From: a virus
Virus record (IMG/VR): IMGVR_UViG_3300040808_000113
Location: 1 to 22,570 of that record
Length of the DNA: 22,570 nt
Direction: 5' to 3' (one strand)
How positions within the stretch are numbered: position 1 is the first letter of the stretch; each line of letters begins with the position of its first letter. Of this stretch, positions 319-22,570 are shown one piece after another. The position numbers and the translations under genes are program-made. Below the pieces are notes generated by a model that had not been told where the DNA came from, did no database searches, and saw only the letters and a program-made list of their open reading frames with translations.

Positions 319-716
319 TTAGTAACTCCCTTCATCTTCTCAAAGGTTCGTAGACCTGCCATGCCAAGCATAGCAAAAGTTAACTCCATGAGTCCTTCGG
401 TGCTAATACTTGGAGGGACTACGTTGAGATGATTTATAGCAATTACCCATTTGACCATTTCATTGCCGACAAACTGCCAACCTAAGCCAAAAGCACAAAG
501 CCAACCTATAGCAGGTCTCCAGCCAGCCACGAAGACTGACTTGTGTTGTGCCTCAGCAATGTTGGTTTGAAGTTGAGCCATGTTAGCTGCATTAGCAGCC
601 TCTACTAGCTTCATCTCCATTTCAGCCTTGGCTTTTGCCGCCGCGTCTTTGTCAGGAATAAATTGGTCCACAATATCGAGGGCCTTAGGTAATAAGGCAG
701 ATAGTAGTGGTAACAT
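315..716 (-). CDS. Holin of the three-transmembrane (GTA holin) family
   Basis: This 133-aa protein has a hydrophobic N-terminus (residues 1-20), an Ala/Glu/Lys-rich helical stretch (25-58), then the signature of the 'Holin of 3TMs, for gene-transfer release' family. That signature is VFVAGWRPAIGWLC followed by FGLGWQFV at about residues 61-83, a second hydrophobic helix (106-124), and the closing GLRTFEKMKG. Holins of this type insert in the inner membrane and time lysis. The gene lies immediately upstream of the small terminase, as holin gp17.5 does in T7. The ATG at 716 has an AGGA ribosome site a few bases upstream. It is the strongest holin candidate of the four membrane proteins encoded here. 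Which of them actually makes the hole is not shown by sequence. Confidence 0.8.
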   Translation of the reverse strand: MLPLLSALLPKALDIVDQFIPDKDAAAKAKAEMEMKLVEAANAANMAQLQTNIAEAQHKSVFVAGWRPAIGWLCAFGLGWQFVGNEMVKWVIAINHLNVVPPSISTEGLMELTFAMLGMAGLRTFEKMKGVTK

Positions 717-1077: not shown

Positions 1078-1347
1078 TTAAGGGTTACTCTGCTTCTCCT
1101 CGACTAATTTAAGTCGAACGTGTAAGTCAGTTAGGCGTTCAACTAATTCCTCCTTCAACTCGCTCCGAGCTTCTCGGTTGCCAGGTGAGGGGATGATGGT
1201 TCCATTGGGGGTAATGAGTAACATCATGTTACCCTTGAGACTGTTTATTTCTAACTGCAAATGATTAATTGAGGAAATTAACCACCACATTGCTGCTAGT
1301 AGGACTGGTAATAGTGATCCGGTTATTTTCCCTATATCAATATTCAT
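1078..1347 (-). CDS. Small N-terminally anchored coiled-coil protein of the lysis cluster
   Basis: This 89-aa protein has one membrane helix near the N-terminus (about residues 11-27, [17 protein letters not shown]). A helix with leucine spacing follows (28-42), then a short Pro/Gly/Asn-rich linker (46-57) and a charged coiled coil (about 58-85). It starts at ATG 1347, overlapping the stop of the 55-aa gene upstream as ATGA. No convincing independent ribosome site is visible, so expression is probably coupled. The anchor-plus-coil layout would suit an inner-membrane spanin-like or holin-accessory protein, but no spanin or lipoprotein motif is present and I do not recognise the family. It begins a run of four tiny membrane-protein genes leading to the three-helix holin. 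Confidence 0.6.
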
Positions 1348-1511
1348 GAGTCGGCTGGCTCAGGCGTATTGCCCTCAGCCAACCACTCTAAGTATTCTTG
1401 ATAGTCTCTGTTTGCTTCGTCAAATGGAATAGAAGCATTGTCTGCTATTCTTAGTATTGAACTAATAGTATTTCCTGTTACTGGATGTACATCTTCAACT
1501 AATTTATACAT
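1344..1511 (-). CDS. 55-aa acidic protein at the end of the fiber cassette (short gene read by hand)
   Basis: An ATG at 1511 directly follows the stop of the 342-aa fiber gene (TAAATG) and has a GGAG ribosome site eight bases upstream inside that gene's last codons. The 55-aa product begins [20 protein letters not shown] and ends in a helix, [21 protein letters not shown] recall this C-terminal style ([18 protein letters not shown]) from small proteins encoded next to tail fibers in many phages, where they are often presumed to be assembly partners. That is recollection, not a search. The stop overlaps the next start as ATGA. No membrane segment is present. The likely role is chaperone or accessory for the preceding fiber. 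The function is not proven. Confidence 0.7.
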
Positions 1512-2540
1512 TTATAACTCCGCATCTGCCGAACAAATACCAAGAGTTCCACCAGAGGTATTGCTCCAACCAAAAGAAGCCCAAGCATTACCAGCAGTAT
1601 AAATAGTTGCGCCATAAGTCCCCCTCATTAAGCCTGTCCCCTCATATAACCCAGCAATCGTTGGTTGACTTCTCATTTGAACTTTATATTGCCAATTTAC
1701 ATAATTATATGCAGCACCATAACTACTCCAAATAGCTTCGTTTGAGTATTCTGCTCCATCTATAAATTGGTAATACCTCTGACACAACAACAACTCAGTA
1801 CCATAAGGTCTATGCTCAAACTCAGTAGCTGACTCACCGGCTTCAAACTGAATTAAAGTAATATCAAAATTGCCAGCTTGGTTTCCTATTGAGCTTGCAC
1901 GAGAGTCATAAGCAGAACCTGAGCTAAGCCATAAGTAAAGTTCTAAATAACTGGTATTTGTTGATGGATCAATAGTTTTTCCTGAAATACTAGGAAGAGT
2001 TAGTGTGACCGAAAACTTTTGCCACGAAGTAGACAAAGTAACTGAGTCAGAATCTGCGGTTACAACACGACTACTTGCACTACCACCAGTTCCAAAACTT
2101 TGGTTTAGTTCTATTGCTATTTTATTTCCAGAAACTGAACTTTTAGCCCAGAATGAAAGAGTACAAGTTTGACCGGCAAATGTTCTAACGTCTTCTATGT
2201 GTTGCGCTAGAATTACATAGTCACTAGTTCCAGAGTTTGAGGAAACTGTATTCCTTAGATAAAACTCAGGCTCTCCAGTAACATCTGTTTGTCCTAAAGT
2301 AAACGATTGTTGACTAACATCTACAGTAGGTCCACTTAGAAAATATTTCCATCTATCCAATGCCGGATATGTATTGTTTGAAATTCCAGTTGCACTAGTA
2401 CCACGCTGTGCAATCTGCATCGCACCATTAATGATCCTGTTCTTGCCTACTGTGTTGTAAGCATTAGGCGTAGTGCCATTGATCGATGTAGTGCTACCAC
2501 CGTTAGCATCTGTAATTGCGTTGACTGCAATGGTACTCAT
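1512..2540 (-). CDS. Tail fiber / receptor-binding protein with jelly-roll-like carbohydrate-binding region
   Basis: This is the largest accessory fiber gene (342 aa). It starts with the cassette leader MSTIAVNAITDANGG, followed by KNRIINGAMQIAQRGTS (residues 33-49), a segment widely seen at the start of phage fiber and neck-appendage domains. Residues about 120-240 (CTLSFWAKSSVSG, SWQKFSVTLTLP, LELYLWLSSGS, FDITLIQFEAGESATEFEHRPYG) have the alternating pattern of a beta-sandwich carbohydrate-binding domain. This region ends in the FExRPYGxELxLCQRYY motif common in such fibers. The last 90 residues are aromatic and Gly-rich and probably form the tip. An AAAGG ribosome site precedes the ATG. 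Its product is likely surface exposed on the virion and binds host polysaccharide. Start and end are tightly abutted by small partner genes. Confidence 0.75.
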   Translation of the reverse strand: MSTIAVNAITDANGGSTTSINGTTPNAYNTVGKNRIINGAMQIAQRGTSATGISNNTYPALDRWKYFLSGPTVDVSQQSFTLGQTDVTGEPEFYLRNTVSSNSGTSDYVILAQHIEDVRTFAGQTCTLSFWAKSSVSGNKIAIELNQSFGTGGSASSRVVTADSDSVTLSTSWQKFSVTLTLPSISGKTIDPSTNTSYLELYLWLSSGSAYDSRASSIGNQAGNFDITLIQFEAGESATEFEHRPYGTELLLCQRYYQFIDGAEYSNEAIWSSYGAAYNYVNWQYKVQMRSQPTIAGLYEGTGLMRGTYGATIYTAGNAWASFGWSNTSGGTLGICSADAEL

Positions 2541-2542
2541 AA

Positions 2543-2809
2543 TTAACCTTTTGGATATTTGTCTTTAACTGCTTGAATCTGTGCAGCCATGTCAGCAGGA
2601 AATACTCCCGCATGAAACAAGGCATCTAACTGGTCACCAATAGCTGGATACTCTAATGCTCTACTAAACTTGTATGCGTCTGGATCAACCCAAGCATTGA
2701 CCGCATCCATGTCAATTTCTACTTTGTTTCCATTAGCATCCATAGCCCCAGCAGTATCATCAATAGACACAACGTTAGAATATAATGCGTAAATAGCTTT
2801 ATGATTCAT
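2543..2809 (-). CDS. 88-aa fiber-partner protein, copy 2
   Basis: This protein is paralogous to the 88-aa protein at 4612-4878. Both share the opening MNHxAIYALYxNV, the segment (D)xDAVNAWVxPxxY (about residues 33-47), YPxIxxQLD (about 55-63) and a C-terminal (A)VKxxxPK helix. The YP-I-QLD plus terminal VKxxYPK pattern is one I associate with small proteins encoded beside phage fibers and base-plate parts. An assembly or adaptor role is an inference. It starts at ATG 2809 inside the end of the 204-aa fiber gene (ATGA overlap). The ribosome site GGAG is embedded in the codons for that gene's last residues, MEIAG. No catalytic or membrane features are seen. Confidence 0.7.
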   Translation of the reverse strand: MNHKAIYALYSNVVSIDDTAGAMDANGNKVEIDMDAVNAWVDPDAYKFSRALEYPAIGDQLDALFHAGVFPADMAAQIQAVKDKYPKG

Positions 2810-3420
2810 CCTGCTATCTCCATTGCTGTAATTGTAGAAACAGAAGTTCCAAATTTATCTGTAGTTCCACCTAAACGATCTCTGTTTATATAAAACGGAT
2901 AAGACGTTCCATACGGAGCAATCCCGTAAATTTTATAAGTTATAGAAGATGTAGTAGAAGGTGAATCTAAATAAATTATATTAGGATGCCAATGAGGATA
3001 AGCATAACTATCTGAAAACACATAACTTGTTGCTTGTTGTAGACTTCCTATTGCATCACCGTATAATATATAAGTAGAATCTCTTGCTAATCTAAAACCA
3101 GCACTGTAGCCAGCAGCAGAAGCAGTAACACTTAAATTGTAAGATATTAAAATTTTACTGTTAGTAGATGAAGGTGTGATACTAACATTTAAACCAGTAA
3201 TTTCTGTCCAGCTAGCCGCACCACTACTAAAGATATCGGTTTTAGCAGTATTAACAACTTGCAACACACTACCAGCAGGAAAGTCTGATTGGTTTCCTGT
3301 AGTTAATACTGTACCAGCAGCATCAGGAAGATTAAATGTTCTGTCAGTATTGCTATTCGGGGCAGCAATAGTGAAATTACCAGTCCCGTTAGCATTGCCC
3401 TGAATAACGACTTTAGACAT
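2806..3420 (-). CDS. Tail fiber tip module, 204 aa (paralogue of the 177-aa protein)
   Basis: The N-terminus carries SKVVIQGNANGTGNFTIAAP and TFNLPDAAGTVLTTGN (residues 2-43), a Gly/Asn-rich beta segment typical of phage fiber attachment regions. The rest is beta-rich and ends STITAMEIAG. It shares scattered landmarks with the 177-aa protein at 4875-5408: VLQ near the start of the domain, SITPSSTNS (DITPASSNS there), LDSPSTTSSITY (FDSPSTTSQITY there), and the MEIAG end. The two are therefore divergent copies of one receptor-binding head with different surface loops and different N-terminal leaders. The ATG at 3420 abuts the preceding TAA, with a GGAG ribosome site upstream. The receptor cannot be named. 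Confidence 0.75.
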   Translation of the reverse strand: MSKVVIQGNANGTGNFTIAAPNSNTDRTFNLPDAAGTVLTTGNQSDFPAGSVLQVVNTAKTDIFSSGAASWTEITGLNVSITPSSTNSKILISYNLSVTASAAGYSAGFRLARDSTYILYGDAIGSLQQATSYVFSDSYAYPHWHPNIIYLDSPSTTSSITYKIYGIAPYGTSYPFYINRDRLGGTTDKFGTSVSTITAMEIAG

Positions 3421-3660
3421 TTACATATTCTCCACAACATTACGCAACTCTACTTCATTAATAGCTGCATCAATATCTGTTTGTACTGTTTCGTACTTAG
3501 CTCTTATAGCTACCCTAGACTCTTCAGCAGCAGTAGCGTCAGCACCAGGAATCTGTTTAGCAATCACATCATCGTGTGGCTTAAACTCTTCCTCACGCTT
3601 AGCTCTACGCATGTCGTGAGCAATGTCTTTAGCTTTAGTTAGGTTTACAGTAATAGGCAT
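3421..3660 (-). CDS. 79-aa basic/acidic helical fiber-cassette protein, probable assembly partner
   Basis: The product, starting MPITVNLTKAKDIAHDMRRAK, is short, soluble and strongly helical. It has a basic N-terminal helix (residues 8-20) and a long helix over the second half containing YETVQTDIDAAINEVELRNVV. I recall similar small proteins (an N-terminal 'ITVNLxKAKxI' followed by charged helices) near phage fiber genes, with no proven function. A start 15 bases further upstream is possible. I choose ATG 3660 because it overlaps the previous stop as TAATG and has a GGGAG ribosome site at normal spacing. The stop abuts the ATG of the 204-aa fiber gene. Confidence 0.65.
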   Translation of the reverse strand: MPITVNLTKAKDIAHDMRRAKREEEFKPHDDVIAKQIPGADATAAEESRVAIRAKYETVQTDIDAAINEVELRNVVENM

Positions 3661-3848
3661 TATGCGTACTCCCAAGCATTTCTAAAAGTTCTATCCCCAG
3701 GAATGTCAGTAACATCTACAATCTGATACTCTTTACCAGCAGGTACATCCTTAGCAGCAATCTGCTCAATAGTTAAACCACTGTTAGGTGCTGGTACAAT
3801 CACTGCTACACCACCGTCATCTGTAGGATAAATAATTCTCTTGTCCAT
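3660..3848 (-). CDS. 62-aa fiber-cassette protein with DRTFRNAW motif
   Basis: This short soluble protein begins MDKRIIYPTDDGGVAVIVPA and ends GDRTFRNAWEYA. The two halves (an N-terminal beta stretch, and the terminal DRTFRNAW) resemble small conserved proteins that I recall beside tail-fiber genes of phages. The name or function of that family is not established by anything here. GAGGA six bases before the ATG is a good ribosome site. The gene follows the 136-aa fiber module by nine bases and overlaps the next gene as TAATG, so it belongs to the same translational chain. A chaperone or adaptor role is an inference from its neighbours. Confidence 0.65.
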   Translation of the reverse strand: MDKRIIYPTDDGGVAVIVPAPNSGLTIEQIAAKDVPAGKEYQIVDVTDIPGDRTFRNAWEYA

Positions 3849-3857
3849 AATTTCCTC

Positions 3858-4268
3858 TTATCTAAGAACTATTATTGATATAAAAGATACATCATAACGT
3901 ACTGTAGTATTTCCAAAACCAGCATTAATTCTAAAACTTGTTGTTGTCATAGCTTCAGAATCTAAAGTTGAACTGGTATACGCACTCCGAAGTGACACGG
4001 CTGCAGGTTGACCAGACGTTAATGAACCAGCATTACACATATGAGCTAAACTATAGTTAGCGTTAGGCATTGCATTAGTAAAGTTAACTGTGTAATCACC
4101 AGTACCGTTATCAGTAATACTACCTACGTTAAATGAATCTCTAATAGCAACTGTTCCAGTACCATCAAAGTTTACCCAAGCCTTTGCAGAACCATTAATG
4201 ACATTAGTGACATCAGTAGACTCTGATCCGTCTCTGCTTGCTATTGTGTCTAGTTTAAGTGTACTCAT
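3858..4268 (-). CDS. Tail fiber tip module, 136 aa (paralogue of the 113-aa protein)
   Basis: It begins with the cassette leader MSTLKLDTIASRDG, then a short link (STDVTNVINGSA) and a beta domain. The domain carries KAWVNFDGTGTVAIRDSFNV, SITDNGTGDYTVNFTNAM and the terminal VSFISIIVLR. The KAWVNFDGTxT...SITDxGxGxYTVNFTNA block is shared with the 113-aa protein next door, so the two genes are tandem copies of one small receptor-binding or fiber-tip domain. I recall the same block from many marine phage fibers. An AGGT ribosome site precedes ATG 4268. Only five bases separate it from the upstream gene. Confidence 0.75.
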   Translation of the reverse strand: MSTLKLDTIASRDGSESTDVTNVINGSAKAWVNFDGTGTVAIRDSFNVGSITDNGTGDYTVNFTNAMPNANYSLAHMCNAGSLTSGQPAAVSLRSAYTSSTLDSEAMTTTSFRINAGFGNTTVRYDVSFISIIVLR

Positions 4269-4273
4269 TTGGT

Positions 4274-4615
4274 TTACCTAAATATAGCAACTGAATTGTA
4301 TGGAAGATCAGCAAAACCTCCAGCATAAGTAATTACTTTTACAGATGTAGTAGTAGGTGCAGTTACATTTGAGTAATTAGAAAGACCATATCCATTAGAA
4401 CTAGTACCGCACACTGAATAATCTACATCTTCCAGAGCATTTGTAAAGTTTACTGTGTAGATTCCAACTCCTCCATCAGTAATACTACTTACATTTCCAG
4501 ACGATCTAATCATATTAGCTGCTGTTTGTGTGCCATCAAAATTCACCCACGCCTTGCATAGGTACATCTCAACAGCATTGGTGTCTTGTATTGTGTCTAC
4601 CTTCAGTGTACTCAT
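4274..4615 (-). CDS. Tail fiber tip module, 113 aa (paralogue of the 136-aa protein)
   Basis: It has the leader MSTLKVDTIQDTNAVEMYL, then the shared block KAWVNFDGTQTAANMIRSSG and SITDGGVGIYTVNFTNALED, followed by a variable beta region and the end SVAIFR. It is shorter than its neighbour because the region between leader and domain is reduced and loops after TNA differ. It probably trimerises as a fiber end. It starts at ATG 4615, overlapping the stop of the 88-aa gene as ATGA with only a weak ribosome site, so coupling is likely. The receptor is unknown. Confidence 0.72.
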   Translation of the reverse strand: MSTLKVDTIQDTNAVEMYLCKAWVNFDGTQTAANMIRSSGNVSSITDGGVGIYTVNFTNALEDVDYSVCGTSSNGYGLSNYSNVTAPTTTSVKVITYAGGFADLPYNSVAIFR

Positions 4616-4878
4616 GGCTTAGGATGCTCCGTCTTTACAGCCTCAATAGCGTCTTTCCAAGTAGTTGTACCATTGACACTATCCCAATACTGCATATCAA
4701 GTTGTTCTTGGATTGATGGATAAGCAACTCGTCTGTCTCTGGCGTATTGCTCTGGACTAACCCAAGCGTTAACTGCATCAGCGTCAATAGTTACTTCATT
4801 ACCGTCAGCATCGTATGGAGTATCAACAATAATACGTTTAACATTAGGATAAAGTGCATAAATAGCTTCGTGATTCAT
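4612..4878 (-). CDS. 88-aa fiber-partner protein, copy 1
   Basis: This is the first of two paralogues in the window (the other is at 2543-2809), both exactly 88 aa. It opens MNHEAIYALYPNVKRIIVDT, carries DADAVNAWVSPEQYARDRR (about residues 33-51) and YPSIQEQLDMQYWD (about 54-67), and ends in VKTEHPKP. The two copies agree best at the start, the AVNAWV segment and the C-terminal half. The family looks like the small proteins that accompany fiber genes, and a chaperone or connector function is an inference. The ribosome site GGAG lies within the MEIAG-coding end of the upstream fiber gene. The start overlaps that gene's stop as ATGA. Confidence 0.7.
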   Translation of the reverse strand: MNHEAIYALYPNVKRIIVDTPYDADGNEVTIDADAVNAWVSPEQYARDRRVAYPSIQEQLDMQYWDSVNGTTTWKDAIEAVKTEHPKP

Positions 4879-5408
4879 CCGGCAATCTCCATAACTACAA
4901 ATGTTGAAACACCTCTTTCAGACGATGTTGTATCAATATCATCTTCAGTTCTGTTTGTAAAAAGCGTAGTGTTTGCGTAAACATTGTCAAAATTAACAGT
5001 GTAAGTTATTTGCGATGTAGTAGAAGGAGAATCAAAATACATTGCGTTACATGACTCCAAAGTGCTTGCAGAGTTAATATGAAAACTAATAGCTAACGGA
5101 GCAACCATTGATCCTCTATTTCCAACTCCACTTGGTCTTAATGCAGTTCCTGATCTTCTAAAATAAAGACCAGAGTTGTAAGGAATATTTGTATCACCAC
5201 ATTCTCCGCACCACTGAGCTAATAATAAAAATGTGCTATTTGAAGAAGCTGGTGTGATGTCTATTTCTAAATCTGGAATATAAACATCTGAGCCAGCAGT
5301 TATATACTGAGAACTTGGTGTTTCATTTCTAACGTGTTGAATTTGTAATACTCTGTTGTTAGTAACACCAGCAGTGTTGGCTATATTGTCAACCTTTAGT
5401 GTACTCAT
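4875..5408 (-). CDS. Tail fiber tip module, 177 aa (paralogue of the 204-aa protein)
   Basis: It begins with the cassette leader MSTLKVDNIANTAGVTNNRV and continues as a beta-rich domain with VLQIQHV (about residues 20-26), DLEIDITPASSNSTFLLL, FDSPSTTSQITYTVNF and the end STFVVMEIAG. The 204-aa protein at 2806-3420 has the same landmarks in the same order. An unusual pair of cysteines (WCGECG, about residues 67-72) is absent from that copy. It starts at ATG 5408 in an ATGA overlap with the preceding small tip gene, with GGGTGAT as a weak ribosome site. Its product is likely displayed at the virion tail and contacts the host. Confidence 0.74.
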   Translation of the reverse strand: MSTLKVDNIANTAGVTNNRVLQIQHVRNETPSSQYITAGSDVYIPDLEIDITPASSNSTFLLLAQWCGECGDTNIPYNSGLYFRRSGTALRPSGVGNRGSMVAPLAISFHINSASTLESCNAMYFDSPSTTSQITYTVNFDNVYANTTLFTNRTEDDIDTTSSERGVSTFVVMEIAG

Positions 5409-5605
5409 AAGATCACCCAGTTCCCACCTGATGCAACAGTCACTGTCACACCTGAACTAATAGTTATGTCACCAATACTTGCTGCATTGCGTGTAGCAGC
5501 TACTGTGTGATCTGCATCAATAGTCTGGTCATTCTCAAAGAACGCTGAAGTGTTGTACACCCCAGGGGTTTGTATTCCCGTATCTCCATTTAAAATCATT
5601 GCCAT
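5405..5605 (-). CDS. 66-aa protein made of the gp17-like fiber's C-terminal tip domain
   Basis: The product (MAMILNGDTGIQTPGVYNTS...) consists of a short lead-in plus a domain matching the last 47 residues of the upstream fiber. FFENDQTIDADHTV here corresponds to FYENGQTITTSYTL there, and SGVTVTVASGGNWVIL to SGVSVTIPSGSRWVVL. It is therefore a free-standing copy of a tip domain. A start five codons upstream (5620) is possible. I prefer ATG 5605, which overlaps the fiber stop as TAATG with GGTGG as ribosome site. It may cap or exchange with the fiber tip, or be a small trimeric needle. The role is an inference. Confidence 0.65.
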   Translation of the reverse strand: MAMILNGDTGIQTPGVYNTSAFFENDQTIDADHTVAATRNAASIGDITISSGVTVTVASGGNWVIL

Positions 5606-6969
5606 TAGAGCACCACCCATCTTGAGCCACTTGGAATTGTCACGGACACGCCACTGTTAACTGTGAGTGGACCCGTACTCATCGCATTTGTACTAGTTGT
5701 TAATGTGTAACTTGTTGTGATGGTTTGACCGTTTTCATAAAACACTTGGTCACCACCACCTCCTGTCGCGCCCCCGCTACCACCTCCGATAGCTCCCCAA
5801 GCAGACCCGTCGTAACCTTCAAACGAAGTGTCGGTAGAGTTAAATCGGATATATCCGGCAGATGGAGCCGCATCACGTTCACCTGTAGTCCCCGTTGGTA
5901 GGACCGCAGCCCCCGTAGAACTTGTTTTACTGACAACTGTAGACGCATCCACAGTGACGTTGGCCCAGGTAGAGCCATCATAAATACGCACCCTGTTTGA
6001 CGTTGTGTTGAAATACCAGTCACCTGCGGTGAGGGCATCCCCATCACGGTCAAGCGTAGGGTCCGAACTTTGTGCTCCTAGATACACATCCTCAAATTCA
6101 TCGAGGGCCAACTCAGCCGCAGCTTGAGCGGTTTGTGCAGCAGTAGCTGAAGATGCCGCCGAGCTTGCACTAGTCGACGCATTAGTTGCTGAAGTTGATG
6201 CACTTGATGCACTGTTTGAAGCATCAGTTGCGGAGCTTGCAGCGTTAGTCTCAGACGTTGATGCGCTAGTCGCACTATTGGCGGCACTAGTTGCACTGTT
6301 GGACGCTGCGGTTGCTGAAGATGCCGCGTTGGTTTCTGAGGTTGCGGCATTAGTTGCACTTAACGCTGCCGCAGTTTCGGAACTAGCAACCGTAGACTCT
6401 GAAGCCGCTGCCGCAGTGGCAGAATTAGAAGCTGCGGTCGCTGAAGTTGCTGCTGCGGTTGCTGAGGTTGACGCACTAGTGGCTGAAGATGCCGCAGCTG
6501 TTGCTGAGTTACTAGCACTCGTAACCGCACTTGAATATGTACTTTCGACCCAAGTCTTTGTTGCCGCATCTTGGGCATTGACCGGATCCCCTACATTAAT
6601 GATCCGACGGTTATCTGCATCATACTGCCCCGTAGCATCTTGAATAATAGCTTGCTCTAGCTCATCCGCAGATTCTTGAGACGTGTATAAATTATATAAC
6701 GCTAAGAGGTCGAGATCGCTCTCAAGCAATGCCGACCCATCCGTAAAGTCAACTAGGGTGGACCCCCGAGGGGTTGTCCTCCTAATCTCAATCGTTGAGT
6801 CAGCCGCTGGTGCAGCGTCAAGCTGAACCGTACTGCTACTCAGGAACGAGAAGTCTACTGCTACCCCTTCGACCTTTACCGAAATATGATCTTCATCAAT
6901 ATACGGGAAGGAGAAAGCATAGTTAGTAGTGGACCCGTCACCTGTATAAAATATGTAACTATAAGCCAC
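5605..6969 (-). CDS. Tail fiber protein with T7 gp17-type N-terminal attachment domain
   Basis: This is the main fiber gene (454 aa; T7 gp17 is about 553). Residues 1-140 match the T7 tail fiber N-terminal domain that docks the fiber to the tail (FYTGDGSTTNYAFSFPYI, IEIRRTTP, VDFTDGSALLESDLDL, then QDAATKTWV). Residues 155-280 are 18 consecutive heptads of the type S-(A/E)-T-x-A-x-x, forming a long trimeric shaft. Residues 300-395 hold two short beta motifs (GDWYFNTTSNRVRIYDGSTW and YIRFNSTDTSFEGYDGSAW), followed by a Gly-rich hinge and a tip domain (408-454). The start is GTG at 6969, with a GGAG ribosome site eight bases upstream. The gene sits directly after an intrinsic terminator hairpin. 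Confidence 0.9.
   Translation of the reverse strand: MAYSYIFYTGDGSTTNYAFSFPYIDEDHISVKVEGVAVDFSFLSSSTVQLDAAPAADSTIEIRRTTPRGSTLVDFTDGSALLESDLDLLALYNLYTSQESADELEQAIIQDATGQYDADNRRIINVGDPVNAQDAATKTWVESTYSSAVTSASNSATAAASSATSASTSATAAATSATAASNSATAAAASESTVASSETAAALSATNAATSETNAASSATAASNSATSAANSATSASTSETNAASSATDASNSASSASTSATNASTSASSAASSATAAQTAQAAAELALDEFEDVYLGAQSSDPTLDRDGDALTAGDWYFNTTSNRVRIYDGSTWANVTVDASTVVSKTSSTGAAVLPTGTTGERDAAPSAGYIRFNSTDTSFEGYDGSAWGAIGGGSGGATGGGGDQVFYENGQTITTSYTLTTSTNAMSTGPLTVNSGVSVTIPSGSRWVVL
6130..6507 (-). repeat. 18 coding heptad repeats (21 bp each) in the fiber shaft
   Basis: Codons 155-280 of the gp17-like fiber form 18 uninterrupted seven-residue units of pattern S-(A/E/S)-x-x-A-x-x, for example SATAASN, SETNAAS and SATSAST. 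Each is a degenerate 21-bp unit. Codon choice varies between units, so the DNA repeat is weaker than the protein repeat. Such Ala/Ser/Thr heptads are known from phage fiber shafts and set fiber length. The array is coding and not a CRISPR. Confidence 0.85.
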
Positions 6970-13197: not shown

Positions 13198-13671
13198 TTA
13201 TCTCTTCATATAAAATTTGTGAAATGGCTCTCCATCAATTCCATGTGGAGTTGGCTCACAAATTGTAAAACCAAGCCATTTAAGCCAATGAATATGTTTT
13301 GTATTACCTGCCCAAACATAGTTCTCTAGATACCCGTAGTTATCTAACATCTTCTCTGTTATCCCTCGGCATTGAACTACGAACTCCCTTTTGAAATTCG
13401 TGAGTAAATCTGAGGCCAACATCCAAGGGGATCCGAAGACACCGCGATGTCCACCACAGCCGTACATAAGAATAATTTGATTGTTAATCCATGCAGAATA
13501 GCAGGAGTCAGAGAGGGCAAAAGCATATAGCAAGGAGACCTCAGGATCTAAACCAGTTCCGTGGTTTATTTCTTGGAGATCAGCCTCGCGTAAATGCTTT
13601 GCTAATAAAATACAGTCCTTCTTACTGGCCTGTTTAACTCTTGGCCTAGACTGCTTTACTACGTTTGACAT
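13198..13671 (-). CDS. T7 gp13-like protein (GNAT-fold-type virion morphogenesis protein)
   Basis: The C-terminal half carries EKMLDNYGYLENYVWAGNTK followed by HIHWLKWLGF (about residues 103-132). As I recall it, this matches the YVWVGNTSHIRFLKTIG segment of T7 gp13. Position between tail tube B and gp14 agrees. The layout of a helix, NxxHIxxLxxLGF and a short C-terminal strand is that of acetyltransferase-like folds, though acetyl transfer by this family is not established. A GTG at 13692 would extend the product by seven residues. I choose ATG 13671 because GGGAAGGA lies just upstream. The resulting 157-aa protein overlaps the end of tail tube B by 26 bases. The N-terminal 20 residues are basic. 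Confidence 0.82.
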   Translation of the reverse strand: MSNVVKQSRPRVKQASKKDCILLAKHLREADLQEINHGTGLDPEVSLLYAFALSDSCYSAWINNQIILMYGCGGHRGVFGSPWMLASDLLTNFKREFVVQCRGITEKMLDNYGYLENYVWAGNTKHIHWLKWLGFTICEPTPHGIDGEPFHKFYMKR

Positions 13672-16000
13672 ACATTCCTTCCCAGTCGGCACTCAAAAGA
13701 GCCGAGGGCAATGGGGTATCGTTTGTTACTTGAATTGAAACCTCAGTGTTCTTGGCTAAGACAGGAAACTTAAACAACCCAGTTTCCAACGCTATGTCAC
13801 CAATAGTTGAACTTGAGAGACCCACGGTCTTTCCTGAGAAAATATATTCGTAGCTCGATCTACCCGTAGGTGTCACGATAGCCTTAAAGTATCCGGTATC
13901 AGAAAAGTTTAACTGTAGGTTTCTAACTTGAAGTCGACCTGTAGTATCAGCTTTTTGAGCATTGCCAGAAGCAGTTCTAACCACAATAGGACTAAACGTA
14001 TATGAGTGTGAATATTTACGTCCTAGGATTATATCATTGCCCGAGAAGTCACCTTCTATCCGACCTCCGGCTGCTACTTGCTCCACATCAACTAGAATAC
14101 CTTCGTTAAGTGTTTGGTCCTTAGCCACTACTGCTTGCCACTCACCATCTGTCAAATCACATGGAAGATCAGCTAAAGCGATGTTGCTATAAGTTCCATC
14201 AAAGGTAATGTCAGCACCACTAATAATGACCTTGCGATCCAAGTGAACCGTGTATGGCTCTTCATCCCAAATGTCATCGATAGCCACTGAGAGTTTTTCT
14301 AGATATACCCCATCAGATCTCTGGATAACCAAGAACATATCTGACAAGATAAAGTCTACGTTTAAGATTTCATCTCCAGCATCCAAGGTCCACTTAGACC
14401 AGGCACTTTGCAACTTCTCATTGTTTGACCAGTAAAAGTTATATATGTACATCGAACTTGGATCATCTGGCGTTAACACTGCCAAGATATCGTTGTTCAA
14501 TCCGGCGGCAATCTTAGTAACACCTGCGGGGATGTAGCTAGGAACATGTGAGGTAACATCAGCCGCATCGTTTGTTCCGGCTACTTCGTCAATCGTAAAG
14601 TATTCTCTAAGTCCAGAATACTCACCTTTATCAACCGCAAAGTAAATGTTGTTACCAAAGCCAACTGGGGCTGCTGTAACGTTAGCCTCAAACTCCGTTG
14701 ATTGTTTAACCGCAACGGTCTGGGGTGTCAGAATATCTTGCTGTGTATCTACAATAAACTGTGTTTGTGCAGAGAATAACAGAAGCTGCCGGTTGTATGG
14801 AATTGCATGGACAAGCGTTGACACTTTCGTGTGACTAGCCTGTACATCAATCGGTGCAGAATCAAGTAACTCAGTGACCGTCTTACGGTAGAAGTTAAAG
14901 AACTCTCCGGCCTCAGACATGATCACACCTTCGTCTGAGAGGAAACCTAAGCGGTTCCTGTAGAAAAAGATGTCGTTAATCTTACTGCCAACAAAGGATG
15001 GATCTGGGTTAAGATTAAGGTCCCCTACGGTTCTATCATCCCATGTAGCCTCTTCAAATGTGAATGTTCCATCCGCATTACGAACAAGCTGATGAGGCAT
15101 TGTACTAGCCTCAAAACCTAGGAATTCATCTGGAGCAATGGTTTCAACCCAAGCTCCAGTTCCACTGCCATCAAATTTTACCCAGAAATTATCAAAGCCA
15201 AAGTTCTTATCTCCAATGACCTCAATTTTAAATCCGTCTCTTCCCTGAGCGGGGAGGTCACTAAATTTTTGGATTTGTCCTTTCAGAGCAGTCATTGCCC
15301 CATTGTTAAATCCATCTTCTGCTCGTATTAAAAAATCACCACTCGTTTTAGAGATGTAGATTGTTGATCCTGTTCGGATCACTGTATATCCGGATAAACT
15401 ACTTAGACCATTTGAAACCAACTGAGTGGCAATATAGTCTGTGTTGATATTTGCGGTATGTGAAGAGTTAGACCCATCTGGAGTAGTATAAGACGAGACC
15501 GTAGTGTTATTAATAATGACTTTATAGGTCTGACCGTAGTTACCTACTTTCACGTTAATTAACGCTTCAGCAGCCCTATCTGCTGACTTATCAGCACGTT
15601 GTGTAACAGTCGTGTTTTTATTAACAATGAATGTATAGTCAGCCACCGTAACGGCTCGGAATGATGTAGACGGACTAGCTGAATCTAAGTAAGTTGTGCC
15701 ATCGGGAAACGACACAGTTTTTTCAGTTCCGGCTAAATCAAAAACTTTTAAATTACCATCGGTAATAATGACAACGTATTGCTCGGTCGGATCTCGATTA
15801 ATAGTGTGTAAATAAGCGTCACCTAAAGATCCTGACAAAATCTTTTTTAAATGTTTTGTTGGCGGTCGTTTCCTCAGCCCCTGAGAAGTTGTACTTAGCC
15901 CGTTAGTTTGCTCCTCGGCTTGAGAGGAAAGGCGTAGCGTAAACGGCTGCTGAGAAACTCCATTGACCAGATTTGGTATGGATGAAGAAACTAAAGGCAT
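13646..16000 (-). CDS. Tail tubular protein B (T7 gp12-like nozzle)
   Basis: This 784-aa protein (T7 gp12 is about 794) begins MPLVSSSIPNLVNGVSQQP, the conserved start of gp12 homologues. It continues with the typical LRLSSQAEEQTNGLSTTSQG and RKRPPTKHL segments (about 24-52). A beta-rich body follows, with FFYRNRLGFLSDEGVIMSE (about residues 347-365) and landmarks such as RQLLLFSAQTQFIVD. gp12 forms the nozzle at the tip of the stubby tail and carries the fibers with gp11. It follows tail tube A by four bases and starts at ATG 16000 with a weak GGTA ribosome site. It overlaps the gp13-like gene. No truncation is seen. Confidence 0.93.
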   Translation of the reverse strand: MPLVSSSIPNLVNGVSQQPFTLRLSSQAEEQTNGLSTTSQGLRKRPPTKHLKKILSGSLGDAYLHTINRDPTEQYVVIITDGNLKVFDLAGTEKTVSFPDGTTYLDSASPSTSFRAVTVADYTFIVNKNTTVTQRADKSADRAAEALINVKVGNYGQTYKVIINNTTVSSYTTPDGSNSSHTANINTDYIATQLVSNGLSSLSGYTVIRTGSTIYISKTSGDFLIRAEDGFNNGAMTALKGQIQKFSDLPAQGRDGFKIEVIGDKNFGFDNFWVKFDGSGTGAWVETIAPDEFLGFEASTMPHQLVRNADGTFTFEEATWDDRTVGDLNLNPDPSFVGSKINDIFFYRNRLGFLSDEGVIMSEAGEFFNFYRKTVTELLDSAPIDVQASHTKVSTLVHAIPYNRQLLLFSAQTQFIVDTQQDILTPQTVAVKQSTEFEANVTAAPVGFGNNIYFAVDKGEYSGLREYFTIDEVAGTNDAADVTSHVPSYIPAGVTKIAAGLNNDILAVLTPDDPSSMYIYNFYWSNNEKLQSAWSKWTLDAGDEILNVDFILSDMFLVIQRSDGVYLEKLSVAIDDIWDEEPYTVHLDRKVIISGADITFDGTYSNIALADLPCDLTDGEWQAVVAKDQTLNEGILVDVEQVAAGGRIEGDFSGNDIILGRKYSHSYTFSPIVVRTASGNAQKADTTGRLQVRNLQLNFSDTGYFKAIVTPTGRSSYEYIFSGKTVGLSSSTIGDIALETGLFKFPVLAKNTEVSIQVTNDTPLPSALLSADWEGMYVKRSKAV

Positions 16001-20823: not shown

Positions 20824-22570
20824 TTATTTGATTGGACAAGCACCTGTGGCACATTCGTCCTGTTCAATCTCAATTAATGAGTTGGCTTCGTCTAAAGAAA
20901 TAGGCTGTAAATTAGCCACATATGCGTCATATGCTTCTTTAGTTACAACTTCTTGCGGTAGGTAAAGATAGCCTAAGTCTTTAGCTGACTTAGTTGGATC
21001 AGCCCGAAACAAGAAACTAACACCAACATAGTTATCCCAATTATCTAGCAACCAGTCGATGATCTCTGGCACTTCGTCAGCAGAATAACTAATTGTTGCC
21101 GATACGTTTTGCTGACACCAAGACTTCATCAGCATCTTGTATCTTTCTAGCTGCACTATCGCTGACTCTAGGTTAACCTCAATTTCCATCCCGTCCTTTT
21201 CAACACGCTCAAACGGTACGTCTGACCATTGAACAGGGAAGGTGATCAACACCGCTTCGGGATCAGTAGGGTTATCAATTACTTTGTAGCCAGAAGATCG
21301 GCACAAGGGAACCAACGGATCGTGCTTAGAGAAGTTAACGTTATTGAAGATGTACTTACCTAATGGCTTGTGCACACCCTCACAGGTATCCATAATTTTA
21401 CTTACTGTCCCACTAGGCTTGATTGTCGTGACGTTCTTTGGTCGAGGTAAGCCAAGCTCATCAGCCATGCTATATGCACCAGCGGTAGCTGTACGCTTAA
21501 GATCCTCATAATCATACGCTGACAAATCAGGACGACGCACAACACCTGTAATGCCAACTCCACATAGCCGGAGAAATTCATTATTGAGATGCCATGCTTC
21601 TTGTAATATGCCATCCCGTAGATCAACACAGGTTTGTCTGTAGTTTGCTCTAGCTGCTATCTCAACTGCACGTCTTAATGCAAATGAATTTCCTTTGAAT
21701 TTACCAACATCTACTTCCGATAAATTACAGAAACTGCGGTTTCCTAATAAAATTTCAGCACACGGATTTACGCCTTTGAACCACGGCGCACGTCGAGATG
21801 CGACTTCAGCATTAATAAAGCCTGGTTCAGATCCTCCAGACTCGACCATCATATGAAAGATGTTTTCTAATTCTTCACGGCTTGGCTTTTGTTTAAACAA
21901 CAATGAATTGTTTGACTGTGCTCGTTGGATGTTTTCTTCCCAATAATTTTTCTTAGCTACTGCAAACTCTTCCCACTCATCTTCGCCGTAGTTAAACAAA
22001 GCAATCTCAGCAGAACGACGCGAGGATAAGACTGTACCTAACCAATTCACAATATCGAGGATGTCTATCCGCTGAAGTAAACTTCCGGCTCGCTTATTTA
22101 AGATTTCTGCAATAGCGGTATAGGCTTTTGCAATAGACTCGTCTCCAGATGAGATCCACCCATAACCCTTCAGTCGATCTCCGGCGGGTCTTATCTCTGA
22201 GAAATCAAGGACAAGTTCTTCAGCAGAATACGGATGCGCCAATAGCTTACCAACTGACTTTGCCCACGCTTCCGCAGAGTCACCAACCTTTATAGTCCAC
22301 ACACCTTTGTGAAACTTTTCAGAGTTGTCTTGTTTACCACCCTTAGCAGTTCTTGTAGATCTAACTACGCGGATATTCTTTATTGGCTTACGAAACCCAG
22401 TAAGTGCTCCAATGATAGGCCGGAAGCCAACACCACATCCTTGTAGCAACAGCCATAAAACATCCACAACATCCTGTACTGTTTCTACATGAGTGAATGA
22501 ACAATTAAATTGTGAGGCTTCTCTACTTTTAGCTACGTCTGTGCCACCGAGCCACAGCGTCCTACCCGCT
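20824..22570 (-). CDS. nrdJ: Class II (adenosylcobalamin-dependent) ribonucleoside-triphosphate reductase, 5' end outside window
   Basis: 581 codons are visible and the frame stays open to the window edge, so the N-terminus is missing. It makes deoxynucleotides for phage replication using a B12 radical. The catalytic set of monomeric RTPR is present. NPCAE (near 21760) gives the Asn, radical Cys and Glu at the N-x-C-x-E spacing. A second Cys lies 11 residues on, in SFCNLSEV. The partner redox Cys is in SQFNCSF near 22503. The C-terminal CATGAC pair, spaced as C-x4-C, is the re-reducing thiol pair. KPSGTVSKIMD (near 21400) is the family's phosphate-binding loop. The first and second Cys are closer together than in the Lactobacillus enzyme, so an internal segment is shorter. 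No inactivating change is visible. Confidence 0.93.
   Translation of the reverse strand, partial: AGRTLWLGGTDVAKSREASQFNCSFTHVETVQDVVDVLWLLLQGCGVGFRPIIGALTGFRKPIKNIRVVRSTRTAKGGKQDNSEKFHKGVWTIKVGDSAEAWAKSVGKLLAHPYSAEELVLDFSEIRPAGDRLKGYGWISSGDESIAKAYTAIAEILNKRAGSLLQRIDILDIVNWLGTVLSSRRSAEIALFNYGEDEWEEFAVAKKNYWEENIQRAQSNNSLLFKQKPSREELENIFHMMVESGGSEPGFINAEVASRRAPWFKGVNPCAEILLGNRSFCNLSEVDVGKFKGNSFALRRAVEIAARANYRQTCVDLRDGILQEAWHLNNEFLRLCGVGITGVVRRPDLSAYDYEDLKRTATAGAYSMADELGLPRPKNVTTIKPSGTVSKIMDTCEGVHKPLGKYIFNNVNFSKHDPLVPLCRSSGYKVIDNPTDPEAVLITFPVQWSDVPFERVEKDGMEIEVNLESAIVQLERYKMLMKSWCQQNVSATISYSADEVPEIIDWLLDNWDNYVGVSFLFRADPTKSAKDLGYLYLPQEVVTKEAYDAYVANLQPISLDEANSLIEIEQDECATGACPIK

Follow-up and report, generated by a model that had tools for sequence, protein, structure and literature searches.

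The 22.6-kb virus record IMGVR_UViG_3300040808_000113, here called the window and taken over its full length, comes from an aquatic T7-like virus and has its structural region, which is T7-like, on the minus strand. Behind the gp17-like tail fibre gene of this region lies a cassette of eleven open reading frames (ORFs) that very probably encodes an array of receptor-binding tips together with class-specific chaperones. The genes are spaced by -4 to +9 nucleotides (nt), as calculated from their coordinates, with several 4-nt overlaps. All of the ORFs described in the initial annotation were found on the minus strand, at the sizes it had given. We distinguish three classes of tip (C, D and E), their partners (a, b, c and e) and a tip module, T, which also forms the end of the fibre; sizes are in amino acids (aa).

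Table 1. The gp17-like fibre gene and the genes of the cassette, listed from the fibre onward. HMM, hidden Markov model.
Feature	Position	Strand	Basis
gp17-like tail fibre, 454 aa	5605..6969	-	N-terminal virion anchor PF03906, E 1.5e-43; tail fibre PHROGs
C-terminal T tip module of the 454-aa fibre	residues about 409-454	-	iterative HMM search
Standalone T tip module, 66 aa, MAMILNGDTG leader	5405..5605	-	phrog_36881; homologous to C-terminus of 454-aa fibre
C tip 1, 177 aa, predicted TNF/C1q-like head, MSTLKVD leader	4875..5408	-	C-terminus of tail fibre family phrog_6942
Partner a 1, 88 aa, probable chaperone of TNF-like head	4612..4878	-	follows C tip
D tip 1, 113 aa, MSTLKVD leader	4274..4615	-	tail fibre family phrog_11355
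D tip 2, 136 aa, MSTLKLD leader, variable C-terminal half	3858..4268	-	tail fibre family phrog_11355, E 3e-23
Partner b, 62 aa, N-terminal half of D-class partner	3660..3848	-	D tip upstream
Partner c, 79 aa, C-terminal half of D-class partner	3421..3660	-	fused to b elsewhere
C tip 2, 204 aa, predicted TNF/C1q-like head, MSKVVIQG leader	2806..3420	-	C-terminus of tail fibre family phrog_6942; AlphaFold model, lectin fold match
Partner a 2, 88 aa	2543..2809	-	paralogue of a 1
E tip, 342 aa, MSTIAVN leader, C-terminal ADAEL	1512..2540	-	C-terminus of tail fibre family phrog_4492, E 5e-68
Partner e, 55 aa, partner of E tip	1344..1511	-	E tip upstream

Three pairs of paralogues had been proposed within the cassette, and comparison to composition shuffles upholds each of them: Z is 29 for the two 88-aa proteins, 20 for the 113- and 136-aa proteins and 14 for the 177- and 204-aa proteins, the last pair being homologous in their heads only, with different leaders. 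A fourth pair, absent from the initial annotation, joins the 66-aa protein (for which an alternative start at 5620, giving 71 aa, is possible) to the C-terminal tip of the 454-aa fibre (Z 15 against shuffles). The module common to the two, which we name T, spans about 46 residues. A nucleotide search of a phage collection with the first 12 kb of the window returned no match; the whole block is found intact in other loci, which shows that the cassette is not a chance string of ORFs.

Family placement with PHROGs assigns every C, D and E tip to a tail fibre family (Table 1), and the partners to families of unknown function or to none; Pfam, at its cut-off, matches none of the window's own tips and partners. 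Structure prediction had been suggested as a means of deciding whether these proteins have lectin or fibre folds, and for the 204-aa C tip it points to a TNF-like lectin fold. The AlphaFold model (predicted local distance difference test, pLDDT, 89.8) has a head that matches the bacterial TNF-like lectin PLTL with Z 14.4 and a root-mean-square deviation of 1.9 over 125 residues, BC2L-C with Z 13.5 and C1q with Z about 9; the predicted head is a TNF/C1q-like jelly roll. The C1q profile PF00386 is matched by 3 of 70 members of the C family, and a profile of that family picks up the C-terminal end of orf22, a 658-aa protein (E 3e-30), in the 18-chain structure 9EFK, for which a literature search found no accompanying paper. 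The E tip appears to be carbohydrate-binding-module-like, a label taken from the names of its relatives. A sequence search of the PDB gave nothing for E and chance-level matches for D and T. In D tip 2, column conservation is high at residues about 30-70 and low beyond.

The C-termini of the tips are class-specific: MEIA-type (MEIAG) in C, FR in D, and an AEL/DSEL-type ending that is present in 82 of 103 E proteins and in none of 3176 others. Judged from these sequences, it is plausible that the C-terminus of a tip is the site recognized by its chaperone.

Order of tips and partners across loci

Loci were fetched from a viral collection with four seeds, giving a set of 193 non-redundant loci in which the families were rebuilt by iterative HMM search seeded with the window; gene calls were mechanical. 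The comparison of gene content and order, which the initial annotation had proposed, reveals a strict order of tip and partner. C stands directly before a in 109 of 119 cases, E directly before e in 91 of 92, and D directly before b in 58 of 63 or before a fused bc in 33 of 34; in 72 of the 109 C-a junctions the two genes overlap by 4 nt. Arrays differ in which modules they contain and in how many, with arrangements such as C-a-C-a-E-e (seen in the cultured phage MEP402), D-D-D-b-c and, as in the window, T-C-a-D-D-b-c-C-a-E-e. The cultured phage P-SSP7 carries C193-C198-C191-a96-C213 behind its gp17. Elsewhere b and c form a single ORF in 34 proteins, from which it follows that the 62- and 79-aa proteins are two halves of one partner. 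A search of bacterial genomes produced three loci only, and no host was inferred. Three of the viral loci (L109, L133 and L148) have two tip arrays in succession, with a separate T-ended gene at the head of each, and in another (L082:7992-8516) a single 175-aa ORF joins a partner a to a D tip, through either fusion or frameshift.

The tips also occur at the ends of long fibres, and there they retain their partners. A 1149-aa F+E fibre with PF03906 (L160) has E at its end and is followed by e; the 681-aa PF03906 fibre of Kaagvere, a phage of Pseudomonas putida KT2440, ends in E, and the next gene (Kaagvere_00042, 123 aa) begins with e; a gp17-like fibre of 730 aa (L043) ends in C and is followed by a; and D stands at the end of proteins of 447 to 1429 aa, followed by b and c. 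Among the "long" E genes, some of those with 430-470 aa may instead be standalone tips whose leader is long. The converse situation arises where the C leader is kept but the head has been replaced. In 7 of 9 such cases the next gene is unclassified and not a, as compared with TNF heads, which have a as their next gene in 106 of 138 cases (Fisher p 2e-5 for a versus unclassified), with the caution that at least one of the seven neighbours is an APC-type protein falling below the threshold for a. Fusion and replacement together show that the partner tracks the head, and not the leader or the shaft. In two loci (L089 and L178) a different 86-aa partner (MADYTVTLTDAEDK...), without a Pfam match, stands after tips of 202-205 aa with a replaced head; this gene may represent a fourth class of partner.

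Several observations bear on the nature of the partners. Members of the a family match PF16778 Phage_tail_APC (best 2e-15) and PF09636 XkdW (best 1e-17); in Synechococcus phage RN05-S the gene after a C tip encodes an a-type protein whose C-terminal half matches PF16778. Long e proteins (L182 and L135) have a C-terminal part that, by eye and unscored, is APC-like, and one b-c fusion weakly matches phrog_4912, tail fibre assembly. The partners are small, are mostly more conserved than the heads, and are encoded directly 3' of the tip or fused fibre that they serve, as are Tfa-type chaperones. On these grounds of sequence and position the partners most likely act as chaperones in the folding of the tips and are not themselves displayed.

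Occurrence of the cassette in unrelated phages

The eleven-gene order of the window is found again in three loci. One of these (L041) is gp17-type, and has its second C head and partner replaced; another (L013) has portal and head genes of another type and a fibre without the gp17-anchor label; the third (L106) belongs to yet another virion type. A fourth locus (L270) has a lambda-type J gene with a T-ended gene and a D-D-D-b-c array immediately behind it. Between the window and L041, L013, L106 and L089, b is 87-92% identical, c 70-82% and a up to 89%, and the tips are mostly 37-72% identical over the aligned part; the upstream structural genes show no match or 22%. The first 49-51 residues of the 204-aa tip, leader included, are 69-82% identical in L041 and L089, and the head is unaligned. 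Full or partial cassettes thus occur in phages with unrelated structural genes, and the presence of the same set in otherwise unrelated viruses suggests a shared host-recognition kit.

An 89-aa gene with one hydrophobic N-terminal segment lies right after the cassette (window 1078-1347). It is 51-56% identical in L013, L022, L041 and L180, where most other genes differ, and may therefore travel with the cassette. Endonuclease-like genes stand beside C tips in two loci: an ORF of HNH type (by eye) directly after a 213-aa C tip, from about 8867 on (L201), and, in MEP301 (L001:5854-6435), a gene annotated as a putative endonuclease immediately ahead of the C tip. Homing endonucleases inside tip arrays could drive the swapping of tips.

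Leader, T module and a proposed assembly

Residues 2-12 are alike among C, D and E tips, with a mean BLOSUM62 score of about 0 to +4, as compared with about -3 to -6 against T proteins and -5 to -10 against other genes; at residues 30-41 there is no similarity across the classes. Among arrays of at least two standalone tips, a T-ended gene lies no more than three genes upstream in 96 of 110, as against 2 of 24 long tip genes with a T-ended gene nearby. The shared leader and the T-ended gene upstream of the arrays point to the T end as attachment point and to the leader as the plug. On this pattern of sequences, it is about as likely as not that the tips dock at the T end of the gp17-type fibre, and simultaneous display of several tips is possible, if somewhat short of even. 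The proposal that the heads are branched on a single fibre base is accordingly left with indirect support, from the shared leader and the upstream tip-module gene.

We propose that the cassette encodes receptor-binding tips as separate short proteins, each class being co-translated with a Tfa-type chaperone of its own. Of the three types of head, C would have the TNF/C1q-like lectin fold and E would be carbohydrate-binding-module-like; D is the third. The partners would share the plan of known fibre chaperones, an N-terminal part specific to the class of tip and an exchangeable C-terminal part, which a would contain, c would represent as a separate protein and the short e would lack. The target of each partner is probably the class-specific C-terminus of its tip (MEIAG, FR or AEL), and the finished tips, presumably trimers, would probably dock, by their common N-terminal leader, where the gp17-type fibre ends in its T module, such that one phage could carry several adhesins. 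For this explanation as a whole we estimate a probability of roughly 0.7. The initial annotation had seen in the cassette an expandable array of receptor-binding heads with dedicated partners, and the TNF-like lectin fold, the tail-fibre PHROGs, the class-matched partners, the tips fused to gp17-type shafts elsewhere and the joint replacement of head and partner all bear it out.

A number of results weigh against the proposal. No proteomic record was found that places tips or partners in the particle. The window's own 88-, 62-, 79- and 55-aa proteins reach no Pfam chaperone profile, nor do the b-c fusions match one; the model of the 88-aa partner is confident (pLDDT 96) and has no convincing fold match in the PDB by Foldseek or VIA-align, which is not proof of a new fold. 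The loci behind the counts are partly related and not phylogenetically independent. Within loci, the similarity of leaders across classes is only modestly above permutation (8 of 2000), the leader could serve trimerization instead of docking, and 14 of the 110 standalone arrays have no T module upstream.

The last of these points also favors a different location for the tips, on the tail hub, the capsid or another part of the particle, with the leader as a trimerization strand. The T-ended gene of L106 and L089 fits such a location too, being 168-169 aa long and matching the window's fibre in the T module only. We nevertheless regard it as unlikely, given that C and E tips are fused to gp17-type shafts elsewhere and that the T module, found beside 96 of 110 standalone arrays, is nearly absent near long tip genes. 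Doubtful, too, is the view that the tips are alternatives, with one tip per fibre end, a mixed population of particles and no branching. A leader common to most tips could indeed mean competition for one site, and phages with only one or two tips exist; the window, however, has both MST-type and MSKVVIQG-type leaders, which suggests at least two sites, although this is a weak point.

Other explanations concern the partners and the array itself. Were the partners to stay as permanent caps or co-adhesins, in the manner of TfaMu, then tip and partner would form a two-component receptor-binding head. TfaMu does remain on its fibre, the chaperones of A5 and V22 have been proposed as transient caps (PMC10579305), and the partners are translationally coupled to the tips. 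Against this, Pam3 gp25 was undetected in virions by mass spectrometry (PMC9608196), V22 gp27 is not in the mature fibre (PMC7289586), and small, mostly conserved proteins are ill-suited as the receptor-facing part; we consider permanent caps improbable. The cassette might also be an ordinary pile-up of unrelated tail-fibre-like genes in a hypervariable region, without any assembly logic, and host-recognition islands of marine phages are indeed rich in C1q, carbohydrate-binding and fibre genes (PMC3909814). From random accumulation, however, neither a strict order of tip and partner nor class-specific C-termini are expected, the common leader is limited to the first residues, and the same eleven-gene order is present in phages with unrelated structural genes. 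A pile-up is thus very improbable, and the pairing rules led us to discard it.

Relation to known systems

Metaviromic islands of marine phages, which are under-recruiting host-recognition islands and include those of pelagiphage relatives, contain genes for C1q-like, carbohydrate-binding, XkdW and tail-fibre-assembly proteins (PMC3909814); in the excerpted text these islands are described as variable gene content, without pairing rules, leader or T module. Phage Pam3 offers a solved 3:3 complex of a TNF-like fibre, gp24, and its chaperone, gp25 (PMC9608196). The likeness lies in a TNF-like fibre head with a chaperone, and in the plan that gp25 shares with Mu Tfa, in which the N-terminal domain, on the fibre, is variable and the helical C-terminal domain is conserved (PMC9608196). 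Pam3 differs in having one fibre and one chaperone and no array, and in a fibre that uses a long helical bundle for docking; no relation in sequence to the window's cassette is shown.

In the anchor-branched systems of G7C, KP32 and KP34 the first protein is anchored to the virion (by a PF03906-type domain in KP34), and later proteins carry only a short conserved N-terminal docking peptide, MALxxLV in KP34 (PMC6872550). This peptide on secondary proteins resembles the leader of the C, D and E tips. These systems differ in having a T4gp10-like docking domain, depolymerase spikes, one or a few proteins, and no class-matched partners; in the 454-aa fibre of the window Pfam up to E 1 shows PF03906 only and no T4gp10-like domain, the published fragments of that domain being short. 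The module of Alteromonas phages V22 and A5, a fibre with a downstream chaperone, is likewise shared, being common to distant marine phage families (PMC7289586, PMC10579305); it is, however, a single fibre-chaperone pair, and its chaperone is related to DUF4376 proteins.

The components, the fibre-chaperone pairs and branched fibres are known already; with the genes of the marine islands (PMC3909814) and the TNF-like fibre of Pam3 with its chaperone (PMC9608196) in print, to call the cassette an undescribed system, as the initial annotation did, is too strong. What does appear to be new are the rules of the array: a class-matched set of tips and partners with a shared leader, in a mobile cassette. 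Among open-licence papers, a literature search found neither the T module nor the common leader described, nor any array with tips and partners matched by class.

Host recognition by abundant uncultured aquatic phages is poorly known, and most genes of such cassettes bear the annotation "hypothetical protein". By the pairing rules, a tip and its probable chaperone can be identified from position and C-terminal signature; the rules also connect numerous small orphan genes with the recognition of hosts and reveal a receptor-binding cassette in phages whose structural genes are unrelated. The question of whether a phage has one adhesin or many becomes testable in the cultured relatives P-SSP7, MEP402 and Kaagvere. 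Tentatively, and with odds somewhat against it, the cassettes may be general mobile plug-in adhesins, with a T-module hub on which several tip trimers dock by their leaders, tip-specific chaperones and multi-headed fibres as a result, shared across short- and long-tailed aquatic phages.

Elsewhere in the window, a 164-aa ORF of acetyltransferase-like appearance (by eye) lies between the gene of a 784-aa tail protein and the internal virion protein genes (13198-13692), and a partial ORF running off the window's end (20824-22569) resembles, by eye, a B12-dependent ribonucleotide reductase.

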